Part shown: piece by piece, positions 1,008 to 30,190 of the stretch
Layout: each line of letters opens with the position of its first letter
Position numbering within the stretch: the first letter of the stretch is position 1
Origin: Prochlorococcus sp. AG-311-J23
Lineage (GTDB): Bacteria; Cyanobacteriota; Cyanobacteriia; PCC-6307; Cyanobiaceae
Reading direction: 5' to 3'
Assembly: GCA_003284375.1 (NCBI GenBank)
Contig: QBVL01000016.1
Span: 1-37,648 of the forward strand
DNA length: 37,648 bases
Notes under the pieces: model-generated
Told to the model about the DNA's origin: nothing
Databases searched by the model: none
Seen by the model: the letters and a program-made list of their open reading frames with translations, nothing else
Program-made: the position numbers and the translations under genes

Positions 1008-1010
1008 AAT

Positions 1011-1048
1011 TAATTCTTAATTCTTAATTCTTAATTCTTAATTCTTAA
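1011..1048. repeat. Tandem heptamer repeat (TAATTCT)5
   Basis: Five perfect copies of TAATTCT run from 1011 to 1045, followed by a partial TAA. The array begins 4 bp after the chlG stop and fills about 40% of the gap between the convergent chlG and rsmB genes. No terminator hairpin is seen in this gap. Confidence 0.95.
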
Positions 1049-15351: not shown

Positions 15352-15960
15352 ATGTCTAGATACCGCGGACCTCGCTTGAGGATCACGCGACGCTTGGGAG
15401 ACCTACCTGGTCTCACCCGGAAGGCCGCAAAAAGGTCGCATCCACCAGGTCAGCACGGCCAAGCCCGTCGCAAGCGCTCTGAATACGCGATCCGACTCGA
15501 AGAAAAGCAAAAACTTCGATTCAACTATGGTATTTCTGAACGCCAGCTTGTTCGCTATGTAAAGAAAGCTCGTGCTCAGGAGGGTTCCACAGGAACAAAT
15601 CTCTTAAAGCTTCTGGAGAATAGGCTTGATAATGTTTGTTTTAGACTTGGATTTGGACCTACCATCCCAGGTGCAAGACAGTTAGTAAACCATGGACATG
15701 TAACTGTTAATGGGAGGTGCACTGATATTGCAAGTTATCAATGCAAGGCTGGTGATGTTATTGCTATTAGAGACAACAAAGCTAGCAAGCTATTGGCTCA
15801 AGCCAACTTAGAATTCCCTGGTCTTGCGAATGTCCCTCCCCACCTTGAGCTTGATAAAACCAAACTCTCGGCAAAGATAACTGCAAAGACAGATAGGGAA
15901 TGGGTTGCTATTGAAATCAATGAATTGTTAGTTGTTGAGTATTACTCAAGAAAAGTTTAA
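15352..15960 (+). CDS. rpsD: 30S ribosomal protein S4
   Basis: S4 is a primary 16S rRNA-binding protein that nucleates 30S assembly. The 202-aa product begins [20 protein letters not shown] and has the S4 RNA-binding domain at about 91-150 ([27 protein letters not shown]). It ends YYSRKV. The first 150 bp are clearly more GC-rich, with many CGC codons, than the rest of the gene. The codons for the YYSRK end are repeated exactly at 28898-28914, at the far side of an accessory region (see findings). A terminator follows. Confidence 0.97.
15938..15954 (+). repeat. 17-bp direct repeat, left copy, inside the rpsD 3' end
   Basis: AGTATTACTCAAGAAAA is identical here and at 28898-28914. Seven of the ten bases ending in AGT at the left edge of the match also agree. 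In this copy it encodes the YYSRK of S4. The two copies bracket the accessory region and so look like attachment-site duplicates. Confidence 0.75.
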
Positions 15961-16006
15961 GACTAATCTATTACTGGCTTTTCTTAACCTCAGTCCAACT
16001 TTAGTC

Positions 16007-16047
16007 AAACTCTTGCTGCGCTACTTCGTACGGCAAGAGTTTTTTTT
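16007..16047 (+). terminator. Intrinsic terminator downstream of rpsD
   Basis: AAACTCTTGC (16007-16016) pairs with GCAAGAGTTT (16033-16042), and the right arm runs into a stretch of eight T. It lies 46 bp after the rpsD stop. Confidence 0.88.
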
Positions 16048-16269
16048 ATGCCGAATATTGCAGAGAAATCAAAAGTTTTCGAAAAAAAAGGCGTTGTATT
16101 GTCTTTCACATGAGCTCCTGATGTTTTCTTATATCGTGAACTAATCCCAGGGACTTAAAAGTACAGATACAACGTTATTGATGGAGACCATACGTAAGAA
16201 ACTGCCATTGATAAGTCACTCGATGCGTGTAACGCATTAAGAAGCGAGATCTTAGAGCATGCGCAAGAG

Positions 16270-16560
16270 GTGGCGACCAGGAAAGCTCAGCATGAAATCG
16301 AAACTAATATCCCGAGAAGATGGTTAGGTCTAAGAAAGTCAGTATTAGAAAATGCCTCAATAACTTCCTTGATGAAGAGCAAAAAGTCGACTAGAAGAAT
16401 TGAACTGATTTACCTTAAAGATTTTCTCATTGGCTACTGCAGGCCAAGAGGATTATTAATCAACTCACTAGATGTAAAAAGATTAATGCCAAAAATAGTC
16501 ACTAAAGAATTCCAAGCAGATGGCAACCCGCCTCTCATAGAAAAAGGAAATAAAATATAG
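16270..16560 (+). CDS. Unknown 96-aa protein, probably 5'-truncated or frameshifted
   Basis: The first usable start is a GTG at 16270, giving a basic 96-aa protein with IPRRWLGLRKSVLENASI in the middle and KDFLIGYCRPRG later. The same frame stays open and looks coding back to 16198 (ETAIDKSLDACNALRSEI), where a TAA stops it. An ATG at 16181 in another frame reads METIRK and would join this frame if one base were missing near 16196-16200. A single frameshift in an older, longer gene is the simplest reading. No family is recognised. Confidence 0.5.
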   Translation: MATRKAQHEIETNIPRRWLGLRKSVLENASITSLMKSKKSTRRIELIYLKDFLIGYCRPRGLLINSLDVKRLMPKIVTKEFQADGNPPLIEKGNKI

Positions 16561-16770
16561 TAATAAAGACTTGAAACAGATGATTAAAAACAGAGAGATA
16601 GGAAGAGGCCTTCTAAGTATTCATTAAAAGTGTGAACTTAGGACGAGAGCGCAAGTACAAAGGGAAACGGAAGATAAATATAGAATCAAAGGGTGGAGAA
16701 AGATTATTAAAGGTAGCTATATTAAAGACTGAATATACATACTCCTACAGCTGACCAGAGGAAATCTTGA

Positions 16771-16980
16771 TTAGGCACTAAGTTTTTCCCAGATTTTTTC
16801 AGAATCTTTAATCAAGTCAATAGCATCTTCCTCTCCAAGAGTCTTTTGAGCGTCTCTCATTAACTGTATATATCTCAATCTTAATTGACCCATTTCTATT
16901 TCTCGGTCTAGTTCGCTCAAAGAAGACTGGTTCTTGTATGGCGAGTGTGAGAAATTAAGTGTGGCGTTGTGGTTGCTCAT
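16771..16980 (-). CDS. 69-aa hypothetical protein, paralogue of the protein at 19462-19689
   Basis: The product begins MSNHNATLNFSHSPY and has a conserved, helical C-terminal half LRLRYIQLMRDAQKTLG followed by EDAIDLIKDSE and WEKLSA. The second copy, 2.7 kb away, shares most of these residues and ends IWKKLSA. The family is not one I can name; it looks like a lineage-specific small soluble protein. A 12-bp stem hairpin lies 70 bp upstream of the start. Confidence 0.7.
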   Translation of the reverse strand: MSNHNATLNFSHSPYKNQSSLSELDREIEMGQLRLRYIQLMRDAQKTLGEEDAIDLIKDSEKIWEKLSA

Positions 16981-17050
16981 TATTAAGCCTCAATAAAAGT
17001 TAGTTAAGAAAAGGGAGCTGACCGCAGACAACTCCCAATCCCCTGCTTCA

Positions 17051-17085
17051 AGCAAAGAAACTCACATCGCATAAGTTTCTTTGCT
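17051..17085. other. 12-bp stem hairpin upstream of the 69-aa gene
   Basis: AGCAAAGAAACT (17051-17062) and AGTTTCTTTGCT (17074-17085) form a perfect 12-bp stem with an 11-nt loop. The right arm runs into GCTCTAGTTG, which also follows the hairpin at 19722-19751. No U-tract follows on either strand, so a standard terminator is unlikely. Confidence 0.7.
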
Positions 17086-17299
17086 CTAGTTGGTACTGAT
17101 CCCAACGTTTGAATATTCTGGCTTAGAGTTTAAATGAGTGTGTTAGAAATTTGTTCGGGTCCCTTTCTCTCCAACAGATAATCCTCTTTTGACAGTATTT
17201 CGAATCTAAATAACTAATAGAAGTCTTAAACTACTTTAGGTAGATATTTTTCTCATCAATAACATATTTCTTGAAAATAATTAAATATGGAAGATGTGT

Positions 17300-17497
17300 T
17301 TAGTCGTACAGAGAGGACAAAGCACCCTCTGTGTACAGGGGAGAAAGTGCTCTTTCATAAGCAGTAAAACTCGCACACGATATTAAAGAAAAACTGCTAG
17401 CCAATAATACTATCAAGAATAAAAACTGAGACAACAGAAGAGTAATCTGCGGCATCACGATTAATGGAGTAATAATCTTCTTGCCTTTAACAGCCAT
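17300..17497 (-). CDS. Possible small lipoprotein or membrane protein
   Basis: The 65-aa ORF from an ATG at 17497 has a basic N-terminus (MAVKGKK), a long hydrophobic stretch and then LISC, which fits a lipobox with Cys41 as the lipidated residue. About 24 polar residues follow (ASFTAYERALSPLYTEGALS). It may be a small lipoprotein, or an orphan ORF with chance hydrophobicity. No family is recognised. Confidence 0.4.
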   Translation of the reverse strand: MAVKGKKIITPLIVMPQITLLLSQFLFLIVLLASSFSLISCASFTAYERALSPLYTEGALSSLYD

Positions 17498-17568
17498 TTA
17501 AATAGAAGACATACCGGATTCACTAATAGCAATTATTTCTCCTGATGCAAGCAAAACAGGAGTTCGTT

Positions 17569-17643
17569 ATGTGTACGATTGAGTCTTCGGAGATTCTTGA
17601 TAAAGAGAGAAAGATCAAGCCAGCAGTAAAAAGTGTGAGATAG
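17569..17643 (+). pseudogene. Remnant of the 58-aa gene family (copy 3)
   Basis: The frame reads SSEILDKERKIKPAVKSVR and stops, aligning with the second half of the 58-aa protein at 22183-22359 (STEILGKGKNIQSAEASLRW) and even better with the broken copy at 23764-23937 (STEILGKGKKIKPVVESLR). The first half is missing. The stop codon replaces the same Trp codon as in copy 2. Confidence 0.6.
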
Positions 17644-17819
17644 AGAGGATCAAATCAGGTTCACAATCGTCAACGTTAAAAGTGCCATATTTGTCATCCC
17701 AAGGGGCATAAATTAATGAATCATACTTTCTAAAAAATCTAGCCATGGTCTATCGACTTTTTTAGTGGCATAAAATTGTTTTTTAAGTTATTTAATGTAG
17801 TATTCGCTACCAAACAATT

Positions 17820-18179
17820 ATGGATTTGAAAAGATTTTATTCTTTGAATTTTCTTGGGCGATTGTTGCTAAGTGCAATTTTCATAAATGCAATACCAGGC
17901 AAAATAACAAACTTTGCGGCTCAAGCTGAATACATAACAAACAGAGGTTTTCCCGAGCCAGTTTCAATGATAATGATGGTAGGTGCAATAGCTTTGCTTC
18001 TTGGTGGCACTGTCCTTTTAATCTTCACAGAACGGATCAAACTCGCTTGTTCACTGCTTTTAGTTTTCTTGGTGCCAGCCACAATAATTTTTCATTTGAT
18101 ACCATTTCAACTTGCAGCAGTCGCACGAAACCTATCTTTAATTGGAGGATTATTAGTTGTCATAGAAAAATCCAAATAA
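17820..18179 (+). CDS. DoxX-family membrane protein
   Basis: A 119-aa, four-helix integral membrane protein with the DoxX layout: LGRLLLSAIFINAIPGKITNF at the start, YITNRGFPEPVSMIMMVGAIA in the middle, and two later helices. DoxX proteins are linked to quinone or thiol redox processes but most are uncharacterised. The ATG start is clear. A terminator follows at 18210. Confidence 0.85.
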   Translation: MDLKRFYSLNFLGRLLLSAIFINAIPGKITNFAAQAEYITNRGFPEPVSMIMMVGAIALLLGGTVLLIFTERIKLACSLLLVFLVPATIIFHLIPFQLAAVARNLSLIGGLLVVIEKSK

Positions 18180-18209
18180 CTAATATCGATTCACTATTCA
18201 AAATCTTAT

Positions 18210-18236
18210 GGGCTGACTTGAGTCAGTCCTTTTTTT
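18210..18236 (+). terminator. Intrinsic terminator between doxX-like gene and the next start codon
   Basis: GGGCTGAC (18210-18217) pairs with GTCAGTCC (18222-18229), with one G-T pair and a TTGA loop, followed by seven T. The U-tract ends 1 bp before the ATG of the following gene at 18238. Confidence 0.82.
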
Positions 18237-18237
18237 A

Positions 18238-18699
18238 ATGAAAAAACTCTACTTACTTATTTTATATTTTTGGTTCTTTCAGCCAATCATAGCTAAAGCT
18301 AAGCCTGTAAAAGGGATTAGCGACTTTGATGGAGGATTCAAAGGTGTTGAGAGAATCACTTTTGAATGTCCCGTCAACAACGAGAGAAACATACGAAAAA
18401 CTAATGACGAATTGGACGATCAACAACTAAAAGAAATATGTTGGGTTGATTTTCACTCAACTTATTTGAATGTAATGAACAAACAGGTCATAAATAAACA
18501 AGACGTTATTAGTTTTTGGCAATCACCGCCAAAATCAGGAAAGTGTTGTGCAAGTTGGAATTTAATTTATAAGGATGTTGAAGGAAAGAATAAAATCTTA
18601 TCTATGAGAAAAAAAGAATTTCCATTCCCACTCACAAAAAGAAAATTAAAAATACTTGGTACACCATCAAATATTATCAATCGTTGGCTTGCACAATAA
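18238..18699 (+). CDS. Secreted protein of unknown function, 153 aa
   Basis: The N-terminus (MKKLYLLILYFWFFQPIIAKA) is a Sec signal peptide, probably cleaved after KA. The mature part of about 130 residues has four cysteines (in FECPV, EICWV and KCCASW), which may form disulfides in the periplasm. SPPKSGKCCASW and RKLKILGTPSNIINRWLAQ are its most distinctive parts. No domain is recognised. The ATG lies directly after a terminator, so the gene has almost no leader after it unless transcription reads through. Confidence 0.7.
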   Translation: MKKLYLLILYFWFFQPIIAKAKPVKGISDFDGGFKGVERITFECPVNNERNIRKTNDELDDQQLKEICWVDFHSTYLNVMNKQVINKQDVISFWQSPPKSGKCCASWNLIYKDVEGKNKILSMRKKEFPFPLTKRKLKILGTPSNIINRWLAQ

Positions 18700-18920
18700 A
18701 GAGAAAAGAGATCAAACTAAAAAAAGGCATTTTCGCTTTGCAGGGTGTTCCTGAACATCAATTTTAGAGAGCTTAAACCATTAACTATTCACACAAGAAG
18801 TTAGATCAAGTTCAAGTTGAGTCAGTTGGCTATGCTCTGATGTTATGCCCCATAATTAACCTCGTTCAACGGCTTCTAATATAGATTCATAAAATTCTGG
18901 AATAAGTTTTTTACTTTGTT

Positions 18921-19094
18921 TTAATTGATCGTTGAAATAGAAATTTTCTCTTGACATTCGATATCACTTTCATCGCAGACAACTTCAACCTTGTCTGAAT
19001 GTGAGCTACAACCCATTGCCATTACTGGTGAGACACCAAGAAATGCATGAAGAGTGGTTGCAGAAAAGAGAAGGTACGGAATAAATTTTTTCAT
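18921..19094 (-). CDS. Small secreted Cys-containing protein, possibly frameshifted
   Basis: The 57-aa product has a signal peptide (MKKFIPYLLFSATTLHAFLG, then VSPVMA) and a short mature part with Cys in MGCSS, VVCDES and IECQE. After codon 47 the sequence ISISTIN looks non-native. In an overlapping frame (18957-18856) an ATG starts MSRENFYFNDQLKQSKKLIP, continuing EFYESILEAVERG, which looks more like real protein. Either one base has been gained or lost near 18955 in a longer gene of about 80 residues, or two tiny genes overlap. Function unknown. Confidence 0.55.
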   Translation of the reverse strand: MKKFIPYLLFSATTLHAFLGVSPVMAMGCSSHSDKVEVVCDESDIECQEKISISTIN

Positions 19095-19290
19095 AATCAG
19101 TTGAATTTTTACTGATCATCTATCAACTAATCAGCAATTGTGAGGTTTCAATGTTCGGTTAACTACTTAAACCCCATAAGAATAGAAACTATTTATAAAT
19201 AAACGAGTACTTATAAAAGTAACTTATAAAATATGGATTACTACTTTTTAGCATTCCTCTTTTCTGTTGATAGTCAAAGAGTTCGAGCAC

Positions 19291-19473
19291 ATGAGCAACT
19301 TCCAATTCACTGATGAACAGTTTGTAGAAATCAGAGAAATTTGGAGAGATATCAACTCTCAATGCAAATTACTGCAAGAGCAAACTGACTGTCCTGATAG
19401 CGAGATGGTCAAAATGATTGACTCTGAAAGAGTTATGGGAAAACAAGAGTTAAAAAACTATCTAAGCACTTAG
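19291..19473 (+). CDS. 60-aa acidic hypothetical protein
   Basis: From the ATG at 19291 the product is MSNFQFTDEQFVEIREIW and on to KQELKNYLST, a soluble, helical, acidic protein. A TTG at 19267 would add eight residues. It converges with the 75-aa gene and their last codons overlap by 12 bp. No family is recognised. Confidence 0.55.
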   Translation: MSNFQFTDEQFVEIREIWRDINSQCKLLQEQTDCPDSEMVKMIDSERVMGKQELKNYLST

Positions 19474-19689
19474 TTTTTTCCAGATCACCTCTGATTCTTT
19501 GATCAAGTCAATAGCCTCATTTCTACCAAGTGTCTTTTGTGCGTCGTTCATCAGCTGTATATACCTAAGCCTTAGTTGGTGTTTATTCATGAGTTGCATT
19601 TGTATTTCATGTAGAGACTTTTCACTCAGTGCAACATTATGTTTATTAGGTGCGTGGGAAAAATTTAAAGAGGCATTGTGGTAGCTCAT
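19462..19689 (-). CDS. 75-aa hypothetical protein, paralogue of the protein at 16771-16980
   Basis: The product begins MSYHNASLNFSHAPNKHN and carries the helical core LRLRYIQLMNDAQKTLG, then NEAIDLIKESE. It aligns along its whole length with the 69-aa protein at 16771-16980, with a 5-6 residue insertion in the middle. The two genes are also alike at DNA level, notably near their 3' ends. A hairpin lies 32 bp upstream of its start, as in the paralogue. Function unknown. Confidence 0.7.
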   Translation of the reverse strand: MSYHNASLNFSHAPNKHNVALSEKSLHEIQMQLMNKHQLRLRYIQLMNDAQKTLGRNEAIDLIKESEVIWKKLSA

Positions 19690-19721
19690 TGAACTAAGTC
19701 TGATTAACTTCTTAGCGAGAG

Positions 19722-19751
19722 AGGGAAATTGCTATGCAGAACAATTTCCCT
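19722..19751. other. 10-bp stem hairpin upstream of the 75-aa gene
   Basis: AGGGAAATTG (19722-19731) and CAATTTCCCT (19742-19751) form a perfect stem with a 10-nt loop, followed within 2 bp by GCTCTAGTTG, as at the 17051-17085 hairpin. No U-tract follows. Confidence 0.65.
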
Positions 19752-19872
19752 AGCTCTAGTTGAATGTCAAAAAGGCGCTTTGCAAAACCTTTTCAAGCAC
19801 TTGTAGATGATTGATTAACCTACACAACTTATTAAGATTTTGTCTAGATTCTTTAGCTATTGAGTTGGTTAA

Positions 19873-20007
19873 CCAGTACGGTTTCCCTTCTTAACGGTTG
19901 GAACTTTAAGTGTTGGAGCTTGCAAAGGTGATCCAAAAACTCGTCTAGCTAGTAAGGCAGAACTATCATCAGAACAATTAGCATTACGCACTCAGCAATC
20001 TGGATAA
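19873..20007 (+). pseudogene. Possible start-less remnant of a small lipoprotein gene
   Basis: The open stretch has no start codon but reads TLSVGACKGDPKTRLASKAE and continues LSSEQLALRTQQSG before a TAA. A hydrophobic run ending in Gly-Ala-Cys resembles a lipobox. The missing N-terminus suggests a decayed gene or a frameshift near 19870. Evidence is codon-like composition only. Confidence 0.3.
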
Positions 20008-20066
20008 CTTTCAGACATACTTGATTGATTTTCCTATATGTTTAACTGGAAGCTACCTCCAATGAC

Positions 20067-20228
20067 TTGTCCTCTTCAAAATCTAAAAAGAGAACTGAAA
20101 TACTAGATGAAATCATTTTCTACATCCTTGAACGAGCTAAGTGCGAAGAGGACATCGACAAATACCTTGAGCATGTTCTCGACTATTGCAAGAAGGATCA
20201 CCAACAGGCGTATAAGAAAATAAACTGA
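20067..20228 (+). CDS. 53-aa hypothetical helical protein
   Basis: The frame begins at a TTG (20067) and encodes MSSSKSKKRTEILDEIIFYI, then LERAKCEEDIDKYLEHVLDY and CKKDHQQAYKKIN. Regular spacing of hydrophobic and charged residues suggests a helical hairpin. No ATG or GTG is available before the in-frame stop upstream, so the start is uncertain. The composition is clearly protein-like, but no family is recognised. Confidence 0.5.
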   Translation: MSSSKSKKRTEILDEIIFYILERAKCEEDIDKYLEHVLDYCKKDHQQAYKKIN

Positions 20229-20329
20229 TCAGCACTTAACCTACGAAGAGAGTAAAGTCATACAGATAGAAACGTTTAGGAAAAATGAATAATTCTTCAT
20301 TAAAACCAATCTGTTCACTACTTCCTTGA

Positions 20330-22132
20330 ATGCCAATACGATTAAATAAAGCGCAAGTTTTAAAACAATTCGGGTTGATTCTTTTTTTAACTATTCCCAT
20401 ACCAATCATTGCGCAAGTCACCCCCGCAGCACCCGAAAGCATTGATAAGAAAAAGATCAAAGTATCAACTGCTAGTGGTCAATCTGTTGTGGTCACTGCC
20501 AATCCACTAGCAAGTGATGCAGCCCTTGAAACTTTGAAGAAAGGTGGAACCGCAATGGATGCGGTGGTAGCTGCTCAAACAGTACTTACTGTTGTTGAGC
20601 CACAAAGTTCTGGGTTAGGAGGTGGTTCTTTCCTTATGTATTGGGAGGAAGCAACAAAATCCTTAACTGCACTTGATGGCAGAGAAACTGCATCAGCACA
20701 AGTCAAAGAGGATATGTGGATTAATTCTGATGGAAACGCAATGCCTTGGATAAAGGCAACAAAAAGTCCATCAGCAATTGGAGTCCCTGGTACCACAGCA
20801 TTACTTTGGGAAGGACATCGACAATTTGGAAGATTGCCTTGGGAGAATAATTTTCAAAGAAGTATTGTTCTTGCAAAACAAGGATTCATCCCCAGTCCTC
20901 GCTTCCTTAGATCCATCTCATTAGCTAAGGGACTAGGAATAAGCCATAGTAAAGATTTTAAATCCTTATATTTCCCCAATAATTCTCTACCAAACCAAAA
21001 TGTTCCATTTCGGAACAAAGAATTAGCATCAACACTGAGTCGTATTTCTAAAGGAGGTATTAACGAATTTTATCTTGGAAGTATAGCGAACGAACTAATA
21101 GATGATCTACAACTCTTCAAGAATAAAAAAAAAGAAATAAAATCAATCACGAATGAAGATTTAGCTAATTACAAAGTCATTAAACGTGAGCCAATATGTA
21201 AGAGATATAAATCTTGGAAGGTTTGTTCTTTTCCCCCTCCAAGTGGTGGTGGAGTTGCACTCTTACAAACTCTTGGTACCTATGAACTTCTATCAAAGAA
21301 AAATGTTTCCGAAAGTACGATCAAACATTGGCACCTCCTAGCCGAATCCTTGAGATTTGCAGATGCTGATCGCTCTCACTGGATAGGAGATCCTATTGAT
21401 TTACCAGTTCCTACTAAAGGCTTATTAGATGATAATTATATTGAGGAAAGAGCAAACACTATAAAAAATAACAAGGCAACATTTCGTCCTTTAGCAGGGA
21501 AACCAAAAGGTAGCGAACTTTTAGATCTGGCTAGTCAACCTCGAACAGCCGGTGGAGGTACAACCCACCTAGTAGTAGTTGATAAATACGCTAACGTCGC
21601 TTCCTATACAAGTTCAGTAGAAACTGTCTTTGGTACAAGAACTTTATCTGGAGGCATGATCTTAAATAACCAGCTAACTGACTTCTCTTTTATATCAAAA
21701 GTCAAAGGTAAACCAATAGCCAATCGAATCAAGCCAAATAAACGTCCATTGAGTTCTATGGCTCCAGTCATAGTATTCAAAGATAATCGTCCTGTATTAG
21801 CACTTGGATCACCAGGTGGCTGGCTCATCCCTCACTACATAGCAAATGCATTAATTGGAACACTTGATTTCCAGCTCTCACCAAAAGAAGTCGTTAGTCA
21901 AAAATTACTTTCTGTACAACCTAGTTACACAGTGCTTGAAAAAGATGGGAACTGGTCAAAAGAAGGTAGCAATATCTATCAGTCACTTTTTAAACTTGGT
22001 CACCAAATTAAATACAGTTCTTTTAGCAGTGGGCTAGCTGTTATCAAATGGCATAAGGGAAGTTGGCATGGTGCTGCTGATCCAAGAAGAGAAGGAACAG
22101 CTTTAAGCTTGCAAGGAAAGAAAAACCCATAG
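20330..22132 (+). CDS. ggt: Gamma-glutamyltransferase (periplasmic glutathione hydrolase)
   Basis: GGT cleaves gamma-glutamyl bonds in glutathione and related peptides. It matures by self-cleavage into two subunits, the new N-terminal Thr of the small one being the nucleophile. The 600-aa precursor has a signal peptide (about residues 1-29, LILFLTIPIPIIAQ). The substrate-binding region DGRETA (116-121) holds the glutamate-binding Arg118. The cleavage site and nucleophile are Thr411 in GGGTTHLVVVD (408-418), followed by LNNQLTDFS and the oxyanion-type SPGG. All key residues and the length fit an active enzyme. It is a lone gene in the accessory region. Confidence 0.94.
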   Translation: MPIRLNKAQVLKQFGLILFLTIPIPIIAQVTPAAPESIDKKKIKVSTASGQSVVVTANPLASDAALETLKKGGTAMDAVVAAQTVLTVVEPQSSGLGGGSFLMYWEEATKSLTALDGRETASAQVKEDMWINSDGNAMPWIKATKSPSAIGVPGTTALLWEGHRQFGRLPWENNFQRSIVLAKQGFIPSPRFLRSISLAKGLGISHSKDFKSLYFPNNSLPNQNVPFRNKELASTLSRISKGGINEFYLGSIANELIDDLQLFKNKKKEIKSITNEDLANYKVIKREPICKRYKSWKVCSFPPPSGGGVALLQTLGTYELLSKKNVSESTIKHWHLLAESLRFADADRSHWIGDPIDLPVPTKGLLDDNYIEERANTIKNNKATFRPLAGKPKGSELLDLASQPRTAGGGTTHLVVVDKYANVASYTSSVETVFGTRTLSGGMILNNQLTDFSFISKVKGKPIANRIKPNKRPLSSMAPVIVFKDNRPVLALGSPGGWLIPHYIANALIGTLDFQLSPKEVVSQKLLSVQPSYTVLEKDGNWSKEGSNIYQSLFKLGHQIKYSSFSSGLAVIKWHKGSWHGAADPRREGTALSLQGKKNP

Positions 22133-22182
22133 AGCATAAGAAAGCTTGGGTTGCTCCTTGTAGTAAGAAGTATTTCATCACA

Positions 22183-22359
22183 ATGCGTTTATCCGCGGGC
22201 GTTCCACTCCCAACAGTTACAGCCAACACAGACACAAGCATGAAGTATATCCAAGAGCATTTCTTCCATTACAGAGCTGATGATTCTACTGAGATTCTTG
22301 GTAAAGGTAAAAATATTCAGTCAGCAGAGGCAAGTCTGAGGTGGATTGGATCAATCTAA
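22183..22359 (+). CDS. 58-aa hypothetical protein, founder of a three-copy local family
   Basis: From an ATG at 22183 the product reads MRLSAGVPLPTVTANTDTS, then MKYIQEHFFHYRADDSTEIL and GKGKNIQSAEASLRWIGSI. Two damaged copies lie at 23764-23937 and 17569-17643, and amino-acid similarity is kept in both, which supports this as a once-used coding sequence. It starts 50 bp after ggt on the same strand. No known family is recognised. Confidence 0.6.
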   Translation: MRLSAGVPLPTVTANTDTSMKYIQEHFFHYRADDSTEILGKGKNIQSAEASLRWIGSI

Positions 22360-22440
22360 GTTCACGCTTAGGAGATTATTACTCTAATTTTGATATTGAA
22401 CATCTAAATTTAAATCGGTTGATTTAGTACCTGGAATATT

Positions 22441-23661
22441 ATGTCAAATTATAATTACGGACAATCACCATCCTCCACTTCCACTCAATCAGAAAGTGGT
22501 GATTCCAATGTCGAAACAAAGCTTGTAACAGTAAAAGCTAAAAGTTCATCTCACCCATATTTCGGTCAAGGATCATCCAAGGGATACTTTATTGAAGGAA
22601 AAGAATCCCCTTCATTAACTCTGAGAAAGAATGTCGTATATAGATTCGATCAATCGGATAGCAGTAACAGCAATCATCGAATCCTATTTTTTACTGACGC
22701 GAATAGAATAAATTCTTATCAAACAAATATTTCTGCAGTTGGCATAGCTGGTTCAACGGGTGCATATACCGAGATCACTTTAACCACTGAGACACCATTA
22801 GAAATTTTCTACCAATGTCAAAATCATTCCTTAATGGGTAGCAATCTAAAATCATCAACATCAGCTAGTGACACGGTAATTAGTAGTTCAAATAATGAAC
22901 TAATTGATTCAGGAGCAGGAATCGATACTGTTGCTTATAGTGGGAATTTTTCTGATTATTCTTTCACACGTACTTCAATCTCTTTAAAACTAAAAGATCA
23001 AAGAACAGAGAGAAACGACGGTACTGATACTCTTATAAATGTTGAATATCTACAATTCGCAGATCAAACAGTAGAAGAATCAAAGGTAGACGTTAATAAA
23101 ACCTATAGCGGTGAGTTTAGTGATTACAAGTTCTACAATAAAGGTAATGGGGTATATCAAATCGAAACTGATTCTGGTTATGACGATATCACTGGATATC
23201 CAAAGCTGAGATTTTCTGGAGAAGCAAGCACAAGTTCATTCCGTGATGTAAGTGCCATTGTTGATATCAAAGGGACATTTGATCAGGTCACTGGATTGAA
23301 CACAGATTCAGGACAAATGTTCCGTTTGTATAACGCTTCATTTAAACGCTTACCTGATTCTGATGGATTGGAGTATTGGATTAATCAGTTCAGTTCTGGA
23401 GCAAACTCCATTAGAGTTGTAGCATCTTCATTCTTAGGTTCAGCTGAATTCGCTGAACGTTATGGAAGCAGTGTCACAGACAAACAATACGTAACAACAC
23501 TCTATCAAAATGTTCTAGGCAGATCACCTGATAAAAGTGGATTAAATTATTGGCTTGGACAATTAAGTAGTGGTGCGGAGACTCGCTATGAAGCGCTCCT
23601 AGGCTTTGCTGAATCAGCTGAGAACAAAGCACTCTTTACTGAGATGACTGGATTTGCTTAA
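22441..23661 (+). CDS. Surface/secreted protein: cupredoxin-like domain plus DUF4214 C-terminus
   Basis: The 406-aa protein has no signal peptide and a low-complexity Ser/Thr-rich start. Residues about 45-137 resemble a cupredoxin-like fold: YFIEGKESPSLTLRKNVVYR, then H79, and Cys126-x2-His129-x2-Met132 in YQCQNHSLMG, the order of ligands in type 1 copper sites. A region like those in RTX proteins follows (TVAYSGNFSDYSFT, DGTDTLINVEYLQFADQ). The last 120 residues are a DUF4214 module (FRLYNASFKRLPDSDGLEYW, LYQNVLGRSPDKSGLNYWLG). It ends ALFTEMTGFA. The C-terminal 240 residues match the protease at 24509, so export by a type I secretion route is likely. Confidence 0.75.
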   Translation: MSNYNYGQSPSSTSTQSESGDSNVETKLVTVKAKSSSHPYFGQGSSKGYFIEGKESPSLTLRKNVVYRFDQSDSSNSNHRILFFTDANRINSYQTNISAVGIAGSTGAYTEITLTTETPLEIFYQCQNHSLMGSNLKSSTSASDTVISSSNNELIDSGAGIDTVAYSGNFSDYSFTRTSISLKLKDQRTERNDGTDTLINVEYLQFADQTVEESKVDVNKTYSGEFSDYKFYNKGNGVYQIETDSGYDDITGYPKLRFSGEASTSSFRDVSAIVDIKGTFDQVTGLNTDSGQMFRLYNASFKRLPDSDGLEYWINQFSSGANSIRVVASSFLGSAEFAERYGSSVTDKQYVTTLYQNVLGRSPDKSGLNYWLGQLSSGAETRYEALLGFAESAENKALFTEMTGFA

Positions 23662-23763
23662 CCAATAAAAACTTTTTACTTTTTGCTCTAACAAGTATTC
23701 TTCCGTTCCCTAACCCTTCACAATCAGACGTCAATCACTGTGGGGACTCGAATTAGATCTAGA

Positions 23764-23937
23764 CGATTAAAGGCTGGTGTACCTCTTCCACCAGTTGCAG
23801 CAAACACAGACACAAGCATGAAATACATCCAGGGCCACTAATTCCATTACAGAGCTGATGAGTCCACTGAGATCCTTGGTAAAGGTAAAAAGATCAAGCC
23901 AGTAGTGGAAAGTCTCAGATAGATTGAATCTGTATGA
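23764..23937 (+). pseudogene. Broken copy of the 58-aa gene (copy 2)
   Basis: The frame reads RLKAGVPLPPVAANTDTSMK, YIQGH, stop, FHYRADESTEILGKGKKIKP, VVESLR, stop. Compared with the intact gene at 22183-22359 it has a TAA at 23839 in place of a Phe codon, a TAG at 23920 in place of Trp, and no start codon. It lies directly after the 406-aa gene, so the pair ggt-side copy/DUF4214 gene and this copy/DUF4214 protease suggest a block duplication. Confidence 0.75.
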
Positions 23938-24508
23938 GTGTTTCACTCTCATCAACCACTGATTCCTTAGATCCAATGCTCTGACTAGAGTTTGAGTGAT
24001 CAACGGCGTACAAACTAGAAGCAAAAGGGGATCTCCTCAACAACACTGCAATATCAATAGATTTTTCGATCACCACCTTATTTTGGAGAAAGAGAAAATA
24101 CTCAATCGACACCCTTGTCATAGCAATAGATTTTTCGACCTCCCAGTTAAGTGAAAAGATGTAAATATTTCGACCACTCAAATACAAGGGGGTACGAAAG
24201 ACAACTAAGACAACAATTACCTCTACTCATCTCCCATCAATGGACATCCTGTGAGTACTTTCTTTTATCTCTCACAACTAACGATTTACTCTTCAATCAT
24301 AATGATCCTTATCTAACAACTACTCAGGGAAGAAAAGAGAGAACAAACTAATACCTCAAAGAAATCGAGTCACAAAAGTCTTGCTTGGGTAGAGAAGAAG
24401 CTAAAAGAAGTTAAAGCATTTGATATGGTGGTATCAATTCATAAACAATCTGAAATTAGAAAAAATAGAATAGTTATACTGATTTTAGAAAGATGAAACT
24501 GCCGAATT
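23938..24508. other. Gap without a convincing gene
   Basis: ORFs of 66-90 codons exist on both strands but none has a protein-like composition or a recognisable family. A 15-bp direct repeat, CAATAGATTTTTCGA, lies at about 24055 and 24124. Between about 24325 and 24494 one plus-strand frame reads SLAWVEKKLKEVKAFDMVV and looks coding but has no early start, so it may be a gene remnant. Confidence 0.45.
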
Positions 24509-27190
24509 TTGCCAGTTAATACTTCTCATTTAATAGGGGATTTTGCAGAACATGTCAAAATTGATTTCGCTGGAAAAGAGACAATTTATTACTACATAGA
24601 TAATTCTTATGGGAATGTATATAGTGATGCTTTTTATTATGGTTATGAATATTCTTATCCTCATGACTCTGACTCCGCAAAATATATAGAGAATGTTTTC
24701 CAAAGTATTGATGGACATATAGAACTTGATTTCAAGCGTACATATTCTAAAACTCAAGGAAATATTGATATTTATTATCTAGGTACTTTTTATGAAGGCG
24801 CTGCAGGACTGGCATGGTCCGCCACACCATATGACTCCAATGTAGAGATATTCTGGGAGAAACAACGGGAACATTCTTATATATATGGGAATTATGGATC
24901 ACTACAAGATAGAGACGCTTATACTCTGATTCATGAAATAGGACATGCATTAGGTCTTGATCACCCGAATAATGATCCATATGGAACATGGCATAACTCT
25001 AATGATACTGTCATGTCTTACAATTTTATGTATAATGAAAATCTTGCTTATACGCAAGCGCCATCATGGTCAACGACTGATATAGCTGCACTGCAAACAA
25101 TATGGGGAGTTGAGAAAGGGAATTCGCCTACTTCAATTAGTATTTCAAATAAAAATTTCAATGAGAACTTATCTTCTGATTCTATAATCAGTATATTGTC
25201 AACAACTGATAGTGACTTAAATGATTCTCATACTTATCAATTAGTTAGTGGCCATGGTGATACAGATAATGCATCATTTAAGATTAATGATGATTACCTA
25301 AGGATTCGTAGTTCACCCAATTATGAAAATAAATCAACTTATAGAATTAGAATAAAAACTACAGACAATAAAAACAATAGCTTCACTGAAAACTTTACAC
25401 TTTTCGTAAATGATCTGAATGAAAAACCAACTGATTTCTATCTCTCAAAATATAACTTTAATGAAAATATAAGTGCAGGAACAACTATTGCTACTATATA
25501 TGGAATAGATGAAGACATTGGAAATAGTCATTCGTTTTCATTTATTTCTGGTTTTAAGGAAAGTTCTGGTAATAACGCTTTTATTATTAATGGAAATAAA
25601 CTAAAAATTAAAAATTCACCTGATTATGAGACCCAGAGCTCTTATACAATTGTAATTAAAGCAACAGATCAATCCGGGGAGAGTTCAGCAGGTACATTCT
25701 ATCGAACACTCTATGTGAATAACCTTCCAGAAGGAAGTGCACCTACTTCAATTAAACTATCTAAATCAGATTTCAACGAAAATATTATAAGAAACTCTAA
25801 GATTGCAACATTATCGACCATAGATAATGACTTAAATGATTCACATACCTATTCTATAGTGAGTGGCAAGGGTGATAATGATAATAAATTCTTTACAATT
25901 AGTGATAATAATTTACTAATAAATGAATCACCTAACTATGAAAAAAAATCATCTTATAATATCCGTATATCAACAACTGATAGTGATGGTTTTGAATATT
26001 CTACTCCTATAACTTTAACCGTAAATGATTTAAATGAAGCTCCTACTAATTGGGAGATGTCTGAAATAAGTTTCGACGAAAATATTGAAAAGGGATCAAT
26101 TATTTCAACACTTAGAACTATTGATGAGGACTTAATAGATACTCATACCTTTCAATTCGTCGCCAGTTCTATCTATGGTCCTGATAATAAATATTTCACA
26201 ATTAATTCTAATCAATTGATAATAAATCATTCGCCAGATTATGAAAACCAGTCAATTTATTCTATTCAGTTTGAAGTAATTGATTCTTCTGGCTTAACGT
26301 CCGGTCCATTATGGAGATATTTAACAGTTAATGATCTCCCCGACCCAACGCTGTTAGACGATACTATTACTGGTAGCAATCTAAAAGATGAGATCAATGG
26401 ATTAGAGGGAAATGATTTCATTACTGGTGCAGAAGGAAATGATGCAATTAATGGTGGAGCAGGCTCTGATACTTCTATTTATTCATCAAAATTTAGTAAC
26501 TATTCCTTTATACGAGGAACTAATTCCCTCCAAATTACAGATCAAAGGACAGGTACTAATGATGGAGTTGATACTCTCACAAATATCGAATACATTCAAT
26601 TCTCAGATCAAAAGGTAGAGGAGTCAAAGGTAGACGTCTCTAAAACTTATGCCGATAATTTTAGGGACTATAAGTTTTACAATAAAGGTAATGGTACGTA
26701 TGAGATCAAAAGTGATGCAGGCGTCATTGATAATATTACAGGTATTCCCCTCTTAACCTTTGCAGATAAAACTGCTGGTATCAGTGCAATTGCAGATATC
26801 AAGGGAAGTTTTGATCAAGTCACAGGATTGAATACAGACTCGGGCAAAATGTTCCGTCTCTACAACGCTGCATTTGCACGCTTTCCTGATGCTGATGGTT
26901 TGAAGTATTGGATCAGTAATTTTAGTTCTGGTATTGATGATGAACGAGCTGTTTCAACTTCTTTTCTTGCATCATCAGAATTTAAAGAACGTTATGGAGA
27001 TAACATCACACATGAGACATATGTTCAGAATTTATACTTGAACGTCTTAAATCGAGAATTAGATCAAGATGGTTACGACTACTGGGTTGGTAATCTGAAT
27101 AATGGGGTTGAACAGAGACATGAGGTTCTTTTAGGTTTTTCTGAATCAGCGGAGAACAAAGCTCTCTTTACTGAAATGACAGGTTTTTAA
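24509..27190 (+). CDS. RTX-type zinc metalloprotease with cadherin-like repeats and DUF4214 C-terminus
   Basis: The 893-aa protein has four parts. Residues 1-205 are an M10/serralysin-like peptidase with the zinc motif HEIGHALGLDH (142-152; catalytic Glu143) and Met-turn VMSYN (Met169). Residues about 207-612 are four tandem cadherin-like repeats of about 100 aa, each with a pattern such as NFNEN near the start and SPNYENKSTY near its middle. Residues about 617-652 hold Gly/Asp-rich nonapeptide-like RTX calcium repeats (LEGNDFITGAEGNDAINGG). The last 240 residues match the DUF4214 end of the gene at 22441. No Sec signal is present, which fits type I secretion. The only start after the upstream in-frame TGA is a TTG. 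Confidence 0.85.
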   Translation: MPVNTSHLIGDFAEHVKIDFAGKETIYYYIDNSYGNVYSDAFYYGYEYSYPHDSDSAKYIENVFQSIDGHIELDFKRTYSKTQGNIDIYYLGTFYEGAAGLAWSATPYDSNVEIFWEKQREHSYIYGNYGSLQDRDAYTLIHEIGHALGLDHPNNDPYGTWHNSNDTVMSYNFMYNENLAYTQAPSWSTTDIAALQTIWGVEKGNSPTSISISNKNFNENLSSDSIISILSTTDSDLNDSHTYQLVSGHGDTDNASFKINDDYLRIRSSPNYENKSTYRIRIKTTDNKNNSFTENFTLFVNDLNEKPTDFYLSKYNFNENISAGTTIATIYGIDEDIGNSHSFSFISGFKESSGNNAFIINGNKLKIKNSPDYETQSSYTIVIKATDQSGESSAGTFYRTLYVNNLPEGSAPTSIKLSKSDFNENIIRNSKIATLSTIDNDLNDSHTYSIVSGKGDNDNKFFTISDNNLLINESPNYEKKSSYNIRISTTDSDGFEYSTPITLTVNDLNEAPTNWEMSEISFDENIEKGSIISTLRTIDEDLIDTHTFQFVASSIYGPDNKYFTINSNQLIINHSPDYENQSIYSIQFEVIDSSGLTSGPLWRYLTVNDLPDPTLLDDTITGSNLKDEINGLEGNDFITGAEGNDAINGGAGSDTSIYSSKFSNYSFIRGTNSLQITDQRTGTNDGVDTLTNIEYIQFSDQKVEESKVDVSKTYADNFRDYKFYNKGNGTYEIKSDAGVIDNITGIPLLTFADKTAGISAIADIKGSFDQVTGLNTDSGKMFRLYNAAFARFPDADGLKYWISNFSSGIDDERAVSTSFLASSEFKERYGDNITHETYVQNLYLNVLNRELDQDGYDYWVGNLNNGVEQRHEVLLGFSESAENKALFTEMTGF

Positions 27191-27509
27191 TCACCTCAAT
27201 ACCCAGCACAAATTTCTTTACTCTCATTATTCATAGAATTATAAGTCATTTAGCACCATACGCCGCTTCAATTTCGCTATCATGCAAGGAATTTATCTAT
27301 CACGTTGTATAAATCCAGCTATATGCGGATTCTGTTAGAGCAAAGCATGAGTAGCTAATTTAGCCACACTCAAATGTTTTCATACGAATTAATCTCAGCT
27401 TAGGTTGTACAATCGATTGATAAATACTTAAGATGTAAAACCTATTAAGAGAAAAAGATGACATCTTAAAATATTTAGACGACTAACTCATGAGAGCCTT
27501 ATAAAAGAT
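27191..27509. other. Gap of 319 bp with nothing recognised
   Basis: No ORF of useful length, tRNA, terminator with U-tract or clear repeat is seen between the protease stop and the stop of the minus-strand 158-aa gene. Confidence 0.6.
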
Positions 27510-27986
27510 TTATTGTACTGCAAGAGGTCTTAAGTTAAGAAGTATAGTTGGCATCGACCTGAACCGTAAGCTGAGCTTTATTCGTATAGTCGACATCGAT
27601 CTAAGCCATATCTCTAGCTCACTTCTCTTGATAAAAATTCTATTCCCTTTAGAAGTTAAAAAAACCTTCTCAACAATTTTACCTTCTCTTACAATTATCC
27701 GTACTGTTTGTCCTGATAATCTACCTTGAATCCAATCAAGAATATCTGGGTAAAACTTATCAAAATTATTAAAAGACGTTTCAAGGAAGACAGGCATAAA
27801 TCCTTCTGATTTAATTTTGCTTTCAATAGATTCTGTAGATTTTGCTATTAAATTATTAATTTTTGAATGAATGAGTTCTGTTTCAATTGATTCTCTATGA
27901 AATTTTGAGCTTAACTTCCGATGAATTAACTCATATGTTGATTCAATTCTCTTTTGCTTATTCTTTAGAAAAGTGGCAATATGCAT
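27510..27986 (-). CDS. Unknown 158-aa protein with a duplicated C-terminal segment
   Basis: The protein begins MHIATFLKNKQKRIESTYEL and has a charged helical N-terminal half, then a beta-rich stretch (SGQTVRIIVREGKIVEKVFL, TSKGNRIFIKRSELEIWL). The last 30 residues consist of two 14-aa near-repeats, RSMSTIRIKLSLRF and RSMPTILLNLRPLA, matching a 42-bp tandem duplication in the DNA. The true gene may once have ended near EIWL, with the tail added by loss of the stop. No family is recognised. Confidence 0.55.
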   Translation of the reverse strand: MHIATFLKNKQKRIESTYELIHRKLSSKFHRESIETELIHSKINNLIAKSTESIESKIKSEGFMPVFLETSFNNFDKFYPDILDWIQGRLSGQTVRIIVREGKIVEKVFLTSKGNRIFIKRSELEIWLRSMSTIRIKLSLRFRSMPTILLNLRPLAVQ

Positions 27987-28248
27987 CTTTGATATTTTCC
28001 ATTAATCCTGTCTATCGCATACACGAATACGAAACCAGATAATAAATACTTATAGATACGTAATTAAGAATGATCTCAACCTCTCTAAGAACAGAAAAGG
28101 CGGAGTAGTCAAGGATTTAAAACCCACTATGACTCCAATAATACAGAATATTTCCTGAACTATCATTATGGATAGATCAAGGGCTCAATGCTCCTCAGGA
28201 GGTGGGTTGGTCTTTGACCTGCAATAGGTATCAGCCAAGCTTTTGCGG

Positions 28249-28482
28249 CTATTCCCACATAGGCTTAGTTCTTCGCCAGCCAGCAGCTAAAAGATTCCCC
28301 CACAACTGAATCGCCAGGTCCCTACGCATTCTCTTACGACTCTTAAGTAGAGGTATTCCATTACGTTCAAGTCTACCTTTATCAACAATGATCTTAGGGT
28401 TTTGATCCCAGCTCTCCCAGTCATACCTAAATCTTAATATCCAAACTCCATCAGGCTCCTTAAGCCATCCATCACACTTCAT
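28249..28482 (-). CDS. DUF1651 family protein
   Basis: The 77-aa product fits DUF1651, a small family known mainly from marine picocyanobacteria and often found in accessory regions. The pattern GWLKEPDGVWILRFRYD, then PKIIVDKGRL, LLKSRKRMRRDLAIQLWGNL and AAGWRRTKPMW follows the family from start to end. The ATG start is clear. Function is unknown. Confidence 0.85.
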   Translation of the reverse strand: MKCDGWLKEPDGVWILRFRYDWESWDQNPKIIVDKGRLERNGIPLLKSRKRMRRDLAIQLWGNLLAAGWRRTKPMWE

Positions 28483-28680
28483 CCAACATGAAGCTAGTTA
28501 TTGGTATAATTGTACTAGCGCGAGTGGTTTTATGTCCAGACTTCTGTCCAGTTGGTGTCCAAAGCGCTCCACAACCATGTTAAGCGTCGAAAAACTTAGA
28601 AAATAAAGCTATAAATGAGTATTAAATAGTGTTGCGTAACCCCGATGATCACAGTTACGCGAATCAAAAAGAATGATTTA

Positions 28681-28723
28681 GCGAGAAGAAGAAGTTGCTT
28701 AGGGAACAACTTCTTCTTCTCGC
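28681..28723. other. Perfect 17-bp hairpin
   Basis: GCGAGAAGAAGAAGTTG (28681-28697) and CAACTTCTTCTTCTCGC (28707-28723) pair fully around a 9-nt loop. No U-tract follows on either strand. One arm is pure AGAAGAAG, so it could also be a purine-rich recognition element. Confidence 0.8.
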
Positions 28724-28897
28724 ATAGGTGCTTCAACCAACGTAAATTAATATTCCAAGGGGAGAAATAAGTGTGAGATACGGCTTGAACGGATAGCAGT
28801 AGTTAGATTTATCAAATGTGTAGTGCTGTCAGCATCGTTTTTTGTCCAACTAAAGTCAATATTTTTCCTCTCTTGTTGATTGTTCTCACTGATGTAC

Positions 28898-28914
28898 AGT
28901 ATTACTCAAGAAAA
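28898..28914 (+). repeat. 17-bp direct repeat, right copy
   Basis: Identical to 15938-15954 in rpsD. The frame here reads DVQYYSRKL, like the VVEYYSRKV end of S4, so a little more than the exact match resembles an rpsD 3' end. It lies 106 bp before the sulfur gene cluster. Confidence 0.75.
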
Positions 28915-29020: not shown

Positions 29021-30190
29021 ATGGGATCAGAAAAAAAAAACAAGGAGTTCAGCACTGGGGCAAACACAAGAGTAATTCATCACAAAGAAAATTTTTCGGA
29101 AGAAACCGGGTCAATAATGCCTCCAATCTTCCCAACCTCAACGTTCGTTCATGGTAATGAGGGTGGCTTTGACTACACTCGTTCAGGAAACCCAAATTTT
29201 CGAATTCTAGAATCAGTTTTGTCTGATCTGGAAGAATGTCAGTTTGCAAGTGTGTTTAGTTCTGGAGTCGCTGCTATTACAGCAATAGTCTCCACTCTTA
29301 AGTCTGGAGACTTAATCCTTTGTGAGGAGAACCTTTATGGATGTACGGTGAGATTATTTGAACAAGTTTTTAATCGTTTTGGATTAAAAACTCAATGGAT
29401 TGACTTTACCCAGCCCAATTTTCAAGAAGTCATTTCAAAGCACAAACCCGCGATGATTTGGATCGAAAGTCCTACGAACCCACTCCTTAAAATTATTGAT
29501 ATTGAGGGGATTTGTCATTTCTCGAATAAAATGCAAATACCTGTTGTTGTAGACAATACTTTTGCAACACCTCTATTACAAAGACCTCTTAAACTTGGAG
29601 CGACCTTATCTTTAACTAGCACGACCAAGTATATCAATGGTCACTCAGATGCACTTGGTGGTGCGATATGCACCGAGAGTAGCATTTGGAGAGACAAGCT
29701 GAATTTCGCCCAGAAGGCTCTTGGCTTAAATCCTTCTCCCTTTGATTGCTGGCTTATTACACGAGGAATAAAAACTCTTCCACTTCGCCTAGAGAGACAA
29801 GTTAAGAATGCATTTAAAATAGCTAATCAATTAGCTGATAATCCAGCAATAAAACATGTTCGATATCCTTTTAGAAACGATCATCCACAATGTAAATTAG
29901 CAAAAAGACAAATGACTATGGGAGGAGCAATTGTTACTGCCACTGTTAACGCATCCCAAGCTCAAACCTATTCATTTTGTAAAAGTCTTCATTATTTCAA
30001 AATGGCAGAAAGTCTCGGAGGAATTGAAAGTCTTGTTTGCCATCCAGCCACAATGACACATGCTTCAGTGCCCAAAGAAACAAAACTAAAAATTGGAATT
30101 ACTGATTCACTTATTAGATTTTCCGTTGGATGTGAAGACATTGAAGACTTGAGTGCTGATTTAAATCAAGCCTTGGAAACTATCTCTTGA
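29021..30190 (+). CDS. metB: Cys/Met-metabolism PLP enzyme, cystathionine gamma-synthase/beta-lyase type
   Basis: A fold-type I PLP enzyme of the trans-sulfuration family, 389 aa. It has the N-terminal PPIFPTSTF and DYTRSGNP, the PLP-stacking region SSGVAAITA, Asp178 in VDNTFATPLLQRPL, and the Schiff-base Lys203 in STTKYINGHSD. Cystathionine gamma-synthase, making cystathionine from an activated homoserine and cysteine, is the likely role. A beta-lyase activity cannot be excluded from sequence. An AAAGGA lies just before the ATG. Its stop overlaps the next gene's start, and cysK follows, so the three form a sulfur amino acid operon. Confidence 0.85.
   Translation: MGSEKKNKEFSTGANTRVIHHKENFSEETGSIMPPIFPTSTFVHGNEGGFDYTRSGNPNFRILESVLSDLEECQFASVFSSGVAAITAIVSTLKSGDLILCEENLYGCTVRLFEQVFNRFGLKTQWIDFTQPNFQEVISKHKPAMIWIESPTNPLLKIIDIEGICHFSNKMQIPVVVDNTFATPLLQRPLKLGATLSLTSTTKYINGHSDALGGAICTESSIWRDKLNFAQKALGLNPSPFDCWLITRGIKTLPLRLERQVKNAFKIANQLADNPAIKHVRYPFRNDHPQCKLAKRQMTMGGAIVTATVNASQAQTYSFCKSLHYFKMAESLGGIESLVCHPATMTHASVPKETKLKIGITDSLIRFSVGCEDIEDLSADLNQALETIS

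Follow-up and report, generated by a model that had tools for sequence, protein, structure and literature searches.

What placed a run of variable genes between rpsD and metB in Prochlorococcus sp. AG-311-J23, and why do the same 17 bases stand at both of its ends? The stretch analysed here (contig QBVL01000016.1, 37,648 nucleotides, called the window throughout) carries AGTATTACTCAAGAAAA at 15938-15954, inside the last codons of rpsD, and again at 28898-28914. The original prediction had read this arrangement as the trace of an element that integrated at the end of a ribosomal protein gene and restored it. Comparison with relatives leads us to consider it very probable that 15938-28914 is a decayed integrative element, joined to the chromosome inside the last rpsD codons by a tyrosine recombinase that the element itself encoded.

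The repeat pair and the end of rpsD

The features that frame the question are the following.

15352..15960, + strand: the putative target gene, which we take to be rpsD (30S ribosomal protein S4), as in the original prediction; last codons AAA GTT TAA, of the filled-site type
15938..15954, + strand: left 17-bp copy inside the last rpsD codons, the putative core of the left attachment site (attL)
28898..28914, + strand: right copy, apparently the old rpsD tail, now 123 bp ahead of the first core gene, the putative core of the right attachment site (attR)
29021..30190, + strand: first core gene after the island, called metB as in the original prediction

Both copies are exact and lie where they had been reported; no third site in the window matches with two or fewer mismatches (expected 0.03), and the 1.43-Mb assembly, with a completeness rating of 77%, holds no further exact copy. 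Length is nevertheless weak evidence, as 60 simulated windows averaged 0.13 pairs of at least 17 bp, which makes the pair mildly unusual by this measure, and several other exact pairs of at least 17 bp are present in the window. What the repeat means has therefore to come from relatives. It had also been suggested that the right copy keeps further rpsD-like codons (DVQYYSRKL against VVEYYSRKV); these read correctly, but the likeness to the left of the core is probably due to chance since other elements differ at that place, and real homology at the right copy extends rightward, into old intergenic sequence. After the left core an inverted repeat and T run looked by eye like a terminator, a candidate we dropped when a terminator scan of 15800-16300 returned none.

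A census of 41 same-genus genomes (the window's genus group) located rpsD in 34, and both empty and filled sites occur among them. In 15 of the 34 the site is empty, with the rpsD stop 101-107 bp from metB, and in 19 it is filled. We assigned the filled class by metB on the rpsD contig in 13 genomes, and in G308, G272, G342, G215, G350 and G296 by the absence of metB there together with element left-end sequence. The rpsD-metB distances at filled sites include 1243, 2709, 3297, 4067, 5785, 7845, 9577, 9753, 11350, 13060 (the window), 13472 and 14185 bp, and the site of G130 reaches about 17.8 kb; within this last island, on the reverse strand of L128 near 11686, lies the left end of a second element with an integrase remnant, as in a tandem insertion. 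Contents vary between genomes, with some genes recurring. The comparison that the original prediction proposed thus came out as it expected, with rpsD beside metB and one tail in some relatives and other cargo between two tails in others, and the genes on either flank are syntenic in relatives, in keeping with its view that everything outside the repeats is core.

Filled and empty sites also differ in a single synonymous codon. The last Lys codon of rpsD is AAA in 19/19 filled genomes (AAA GTT or GTA, then stop) against AAG in 15/15 empty ones (AAG GTA or GTT, then stop), and the end of the S4 protein is identical in the two classes. On a tree built from the DNA that precedes the rpsD tail, sites must have switched between filled and empty 10 times, eight of these switches being forced by well-supported branches, and the codon tracks filling in 8/8 independent pairs (p 0.008), so that the last codons most likely arrive with the element. 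At the other end, a displaced rpsD tail (15-20 of 21 bases) stands 119-125 bp before metB in all 14 filled genomes with a readable metB side, a count that omits five genomes whose contigs end before metB and includes G308, whose two ends are on separate contigs; direct repeats from the target gene are thus found at both ends in 14/14. The sequence after the displaced tail resembles that after rpsD in empty genomes. The weakest tail, at 15 of 21 bases, is that of G354, and it also matches the tail of its sister G369.

Taken together, these observations suggest that the element most likely replaces the last rpsD codons and shifts the old tail to its own far end. Before insertion the element would be circular, and its tyrosine recombinase would join it to the chromosome within the last rpsD codons, with the crossover falling somewhere within about TACTCAAGAAA; the element's own copy of these codons would become the end of rpsD, leaving the S4 protein end unchanged, and the old rpsD tail would be moved to the far end of the insert. 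The codon switch, the unchanged protein end and the displaced tail all support the earlier claim that the element integrated where a ribosomal protein gene ends and restored that gene, and on these genome comparisons we hold integration at the rpsD 3' end with high confidence.

Integrase pieces and arm-like motifs at the ends

Contrary to the original prediction, which saw no integrase, pieces of one lie directly after rpsD in the window and the gene is intact in relatives.

15964..16810, + strand: broken gene for a tyrosine recombinase (integrase), together with the DNA that separates it from rpsD, matching the intact gene region of a relative
15993..16009, + strand: arm-like doublet of the left end, GTCCAACTTTAGTCAAA, 36 bp in from that end
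28844..28860, + strand: arm-like doublet of the right end, GTCCAACTAAAGTCAAT, 37 bp in from the right core and differing from the pattern at one position

The window's pieces (15964-16385, 16368-16630, 16626-16679, 16666-16728 and 16779-16810) contain stops and lack most of the catalytic part, and because the integrase is broken the window copy probably cannot move itself. G206, of the window's genus group, has an intact tyrosine recombinase gene directly after rpsD (475-487 aa depending on the start; Phage_integrase 8e-9, PHROG integrase 1e-19), and the integrase of G161 is 94% identical to it, both being open without stops. Among the 19 filled genomes 16 have an integrase match after rpsD, often as a short fragment.

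In a draw of 400 genomes of the family, 55 gave an integrase match at 1e-20 or better, and from these matches we took 30 loci of 3.1-4.4 kb. At 49% identity or more there are 13, of which 11 lie beside rpsD, one (G120) beside metB on a contig without rpsD, and one (G112) elsewhere; the other 17, at 35% or less, have neither rpsD nor a transfer RNA (tRNA) gene. On contig 30 of G120 (L178) the best rpsD-like tail is no better than 14 of 22. In a 28-row integrase tree the four rows from rpsD or metB sites form a clade (98/96) with G112 as the nearest row outside. GLRP, YSLR, LAGH and YY, which we take to be the catalytic motifs, are kept in five aligned integrases. The structure model of the protein is poor (pLDDT 59.5), its best Foldseek match being lambda Int (1z1g, E 3.3e-3), with Cre also weak and none below E 0.001; a sequence search of solved structures gave no recombinase and one unrelated match at E 0.14.

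That the element might instead belong to the tycheposons, a class of integrative elements already described from Prochlorococcus, has the shared hosts, tyrosine recombinase and cargo islands in its favour. However, tycheposons are described as bordered by tRNA genes (PMC10872708), and we found none in the window or in the 30 integrase loci, on which grounds we reject a tRNA-bordered element and consider membership of this class highly unlikely.

We next consider the ends themselves, where the rpsD-inserted element is marked by a second pair of motifs. Of 12 Prochlorococcus elements, 11 carry the doublet GTCMAACNNNNGTCMAAC, matched at 12-14 of 14 fixed positions, both 33-36 bp inward from the left end and 37-40 bp inward from the right core; a variant stands at 47 and 41-42 bp in both of two elements from 'Synechococcus-like' hosts, our term for the other genus group that G089, G216 and G279 share. 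A related pattern with one mismatch allowed occurs in the window solely at 15993 and 28844 (expected 0.10), and shuffled sequence gives 0.30 motif matches per 10 kb. Since the motif was chosen by eye and weaker matches lie inside seven elements, its fixed position is the stronger argument. The attachment sites of lambda integrase combine a core with arm sites, and the paired motifs resemble the arm sites that a lambda-type integrase would use; the core and arm-like layout is shared with lambda, whose Int is also the best Foldseek match, to a low-confidence model.

These results bear on a rival account, in which the repeat is a coincidence and the island an ordinary variable region swapped by homologous recombination between conserved flanks. 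Pairs of this length are not rare (a mean of 0.13 of at least 17 bp per simulated window), and related cargo is found at another place in G346, where the rpsD site is empty. However, the displaced tail at 119-125 bp before metB in 14/14 speaks against homologous exchange as the origin, as do the codon switch (19/19 against 15/15), the integrase at the left end and the motif doublets at fixed distances; codon switch and displaced tails together lead us to reject a chance repeat, and we regard this account as extremely unlikely. Whole filled sites may nonetheless pass from strain to strain by homologous exchange.

Several observations weigh against integration by an element-coded recombinase at rpsD. 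No integrase match was found by tblastn in the filled genomes G333, G173 and G354, G333 sharing 119 bp of the element left end all the same, and G112 has a 49% identical integrase away from rpsD, behind a gene that is presumably MoeB/ThiF-like; a 14-bp repeat (two overlapping 13-mers) after that gene is not taken as proof of insertion ends. The paired motifs are absent from the ends of G354, and the motif was defined on these very ends, a weaker match (12 of 14) recurring inside seven elements and once in G354. At the last-Lys position the 14 displaced tails read AAG in 10, CAG in G206, ACG in G354 and AAA in two, the window and G328, where AAG would be expected of an old host tail; the AAA tails could stem from a crossover lying further to the right, from an earlier occupant of the site or from subsequent conversion. 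Five filled genomes stop at a contig end before metB, and the ends of G308 are on separate contigs. Neither an excised circle nor an attP (element attachment site) junction was seen. The left-end pattern has 0 matches in viral contigs, and a relative of the integrase was found neither in phage records nor, by sequence, in viral contigs, where a profile search gave three loci with a 42-residue match at 45%.

Cargo between the repeats

Between the integrase pieces and the right end the window carries the following features.

17820..18179, + strand: DoxX/SURF4-family membrane protein, cargo
18238..18699, + strand: cargo protein without a Pfam match
20330..22132, + strand: gamma-glutamyltranspeptidase, cargo, in 4 of the 41 same-genus genomes, the window's included
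22174..22353, + strand: C-terminal remnant of a second, different tyrosine recombinase
22441..23661, + strand: DUF4214 protein, cargo
23764..23931, + strand: further C-terminal piece of that second recombinase, at a distance of 1578 bp from the first
24509..27190, + strand: cargo protein with cadherin, RTX-repeat, metallopeptidase-like and DUF4214 domains
27510..27986, - strand: 158-aa protein with an HTH_17 match below the Pfam cut-off, in several rpsD islands and other places
28249..28482, - strand: DUF1651 protein

The remnants of the second recombinase come after cargo genes, and in G342 one likewise follows a photolyase gene; contig 14 of G369 has four matches to it, and a weak third match in the window lies at 17581-17655. 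As the two remnants stand between cargo genes, later accretion is likely, and the island looks like the product of serial accretion of modules. G346 (L216), with an empty rpsD site, has relatives of the DoxX, 153-aa, DUF4214 and gamma-glutamyltranspeptidase proteins grouped at a place away from rpsD. The 158-aa protein has a match in 24 of the 41 genomes, often away from rpsD. A PHROGs search with four small open reading frames (ORFs) of the window gave no match, and relaxase or conjugation genes were absent among the proteins scanned, a scan that covered part of the ORFs. Away from the element, the 7-bp unit TTAATTC forms a short tandem array at window positions 1010-1048.

Relatives with a T7-like RNA polymerase and known systems

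The family extends to Synechococcus-like hosts. The two repeats of G089 agree at 23 of 23 bases across a distance of 22,495 bp, and G216 and G279 have a second tail copy at 18 and 21 of 23 bases. Within 12 bp after its integrase G089 carries an intact 809-aa T7-like RNA polymerase (PF00940 2e-51, phrog_414 5e-151), about 26-28% identical to cyanophage polymerases among the matches listed and 27.9% to that of phage Syn5, and it has an exonuclease-like gene; in G216 the polymerase is split by a stop, and ParA-like and exonuclease-like proteins are present. A polymerase match at 1e-20 occurs in 29 of the 400 family genomes. A distant integrase relative stands near the polymerase in 6 of 10 further loci, in five of them upstream on the same strand at 0.08 to 1.4 kb; in G173 a distant relative is about 4.3 kb off, beyond a partial polymerase gene. 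No tRNA gene was found in the 10 polymerase-locus stretches.

A phage origin, or a phage satellite whose Prochlorococcus members are cut-down forms moved in helper virions, would fit the T7-like polymerase beside the integrase and the exonuclease-like and ParA-like genes, and is compatible with insertion by the element's own recombinase at rpsD. However, no capsid, portal or terminase was found among the proteins scanned, again part of the ORFs, viral contigs lack the left-end pattern and offer nothing beyond the 42-residue integrase match, and the window's genome has no polymerase match; we consider this origin possible but rather unlikely.

Tentatively, the rpsD elements might be one branch of an undescribed picocyanobacterial family in which a lambda-type integrase is paired with a divergent T7-like RNA polymerase, and whose insertion sites are the ends of genes for housekeeping proteins, rpsD and perhaps also ychF and others, rather than tRNAs, although we would not yet lean on this. 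If so, transcription of the element's genes would fall to its own polymerase, and each insertion would leave a record in the last codons of an essential target.

Several further loci are described here in their own right. A related integrase with a downstream T7-like RNA polymerase recurs in picocyanobacteria at L115:14077-17903, L199, L200, L201, L202 and L206. At L200 (G079), L112 and L173 (G303) related integrases lie just past the 3' end of a gene which we take to be ychF-like, and no second copy of its tail was found within the stretches examined; ychF is at most a candidate target. At L108-L111 and L206 a fragment resembling a gene start, presumably of an EVE-domain gene, precedes integrases some 517-541 aa long and may mark a target at the 5' end. 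Of five proteins submitted to PADLOC, L115:4906-7644 matches restriction-enzyme models and L116:10625-11467 weakly matches Cas4-like models, the other three giving none.

Integrative elements in the 3' ends of genes are a known kind. Streptococcal integrative and conjugative elements (ICEs) insert in the 3' ends of rpsI, rplL and rpmG, and like the rpsD elements combine a tyrosine integrase, a ribosomal protein gene 3' end and direct repeats (12-54 bp in the ICEs); unlike them, they belong to Firmicutes and carry conjugation modules, and rpsD is not among these targets (PMC4701971). Tycheposons occur in the same hosts, likewise integrate, encode a tyrosine recombinase and carry variable cargo (PMC10872708, PMC11389934, PMC10187409), but have the tRNA border described in PMC10872708 where the rpsD elements border a protein gene; this sets the two apart by description, not by integrase sequence. 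The picocyanobacterial integrase family cluster158946 is likewise a tyrosine recombinase of Prochlorococcus and Synechococcus islands, reported by tRNA-Phe or tRNA-Cys and so set apart by site description, and the 'cryptic elements' of Hackl et al. 2023, as mentioned in the same source, could include the rpsD element (PMC10187409). Our literature search, which did not cover Hackl et al. 2023, found no mention of rpsD among the papers listed, and a prior mention is possible; we hold with moderate confidence that the use of rpsD instead of a tRNA is new.

A family of mobile elements thus appears to insert into the last codons of an essential gene for a ribosomal protein, supplying it with a new ending. 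The rpsD route adds an easily typed insertion site, in which one synonymous end codon tells the presence of the element across 34 genomes, and the pairing of integrase and T7-like RNA polymerase in its relatives raises the question by what means these elements are expressed and spread among highly abundant phototrophs.

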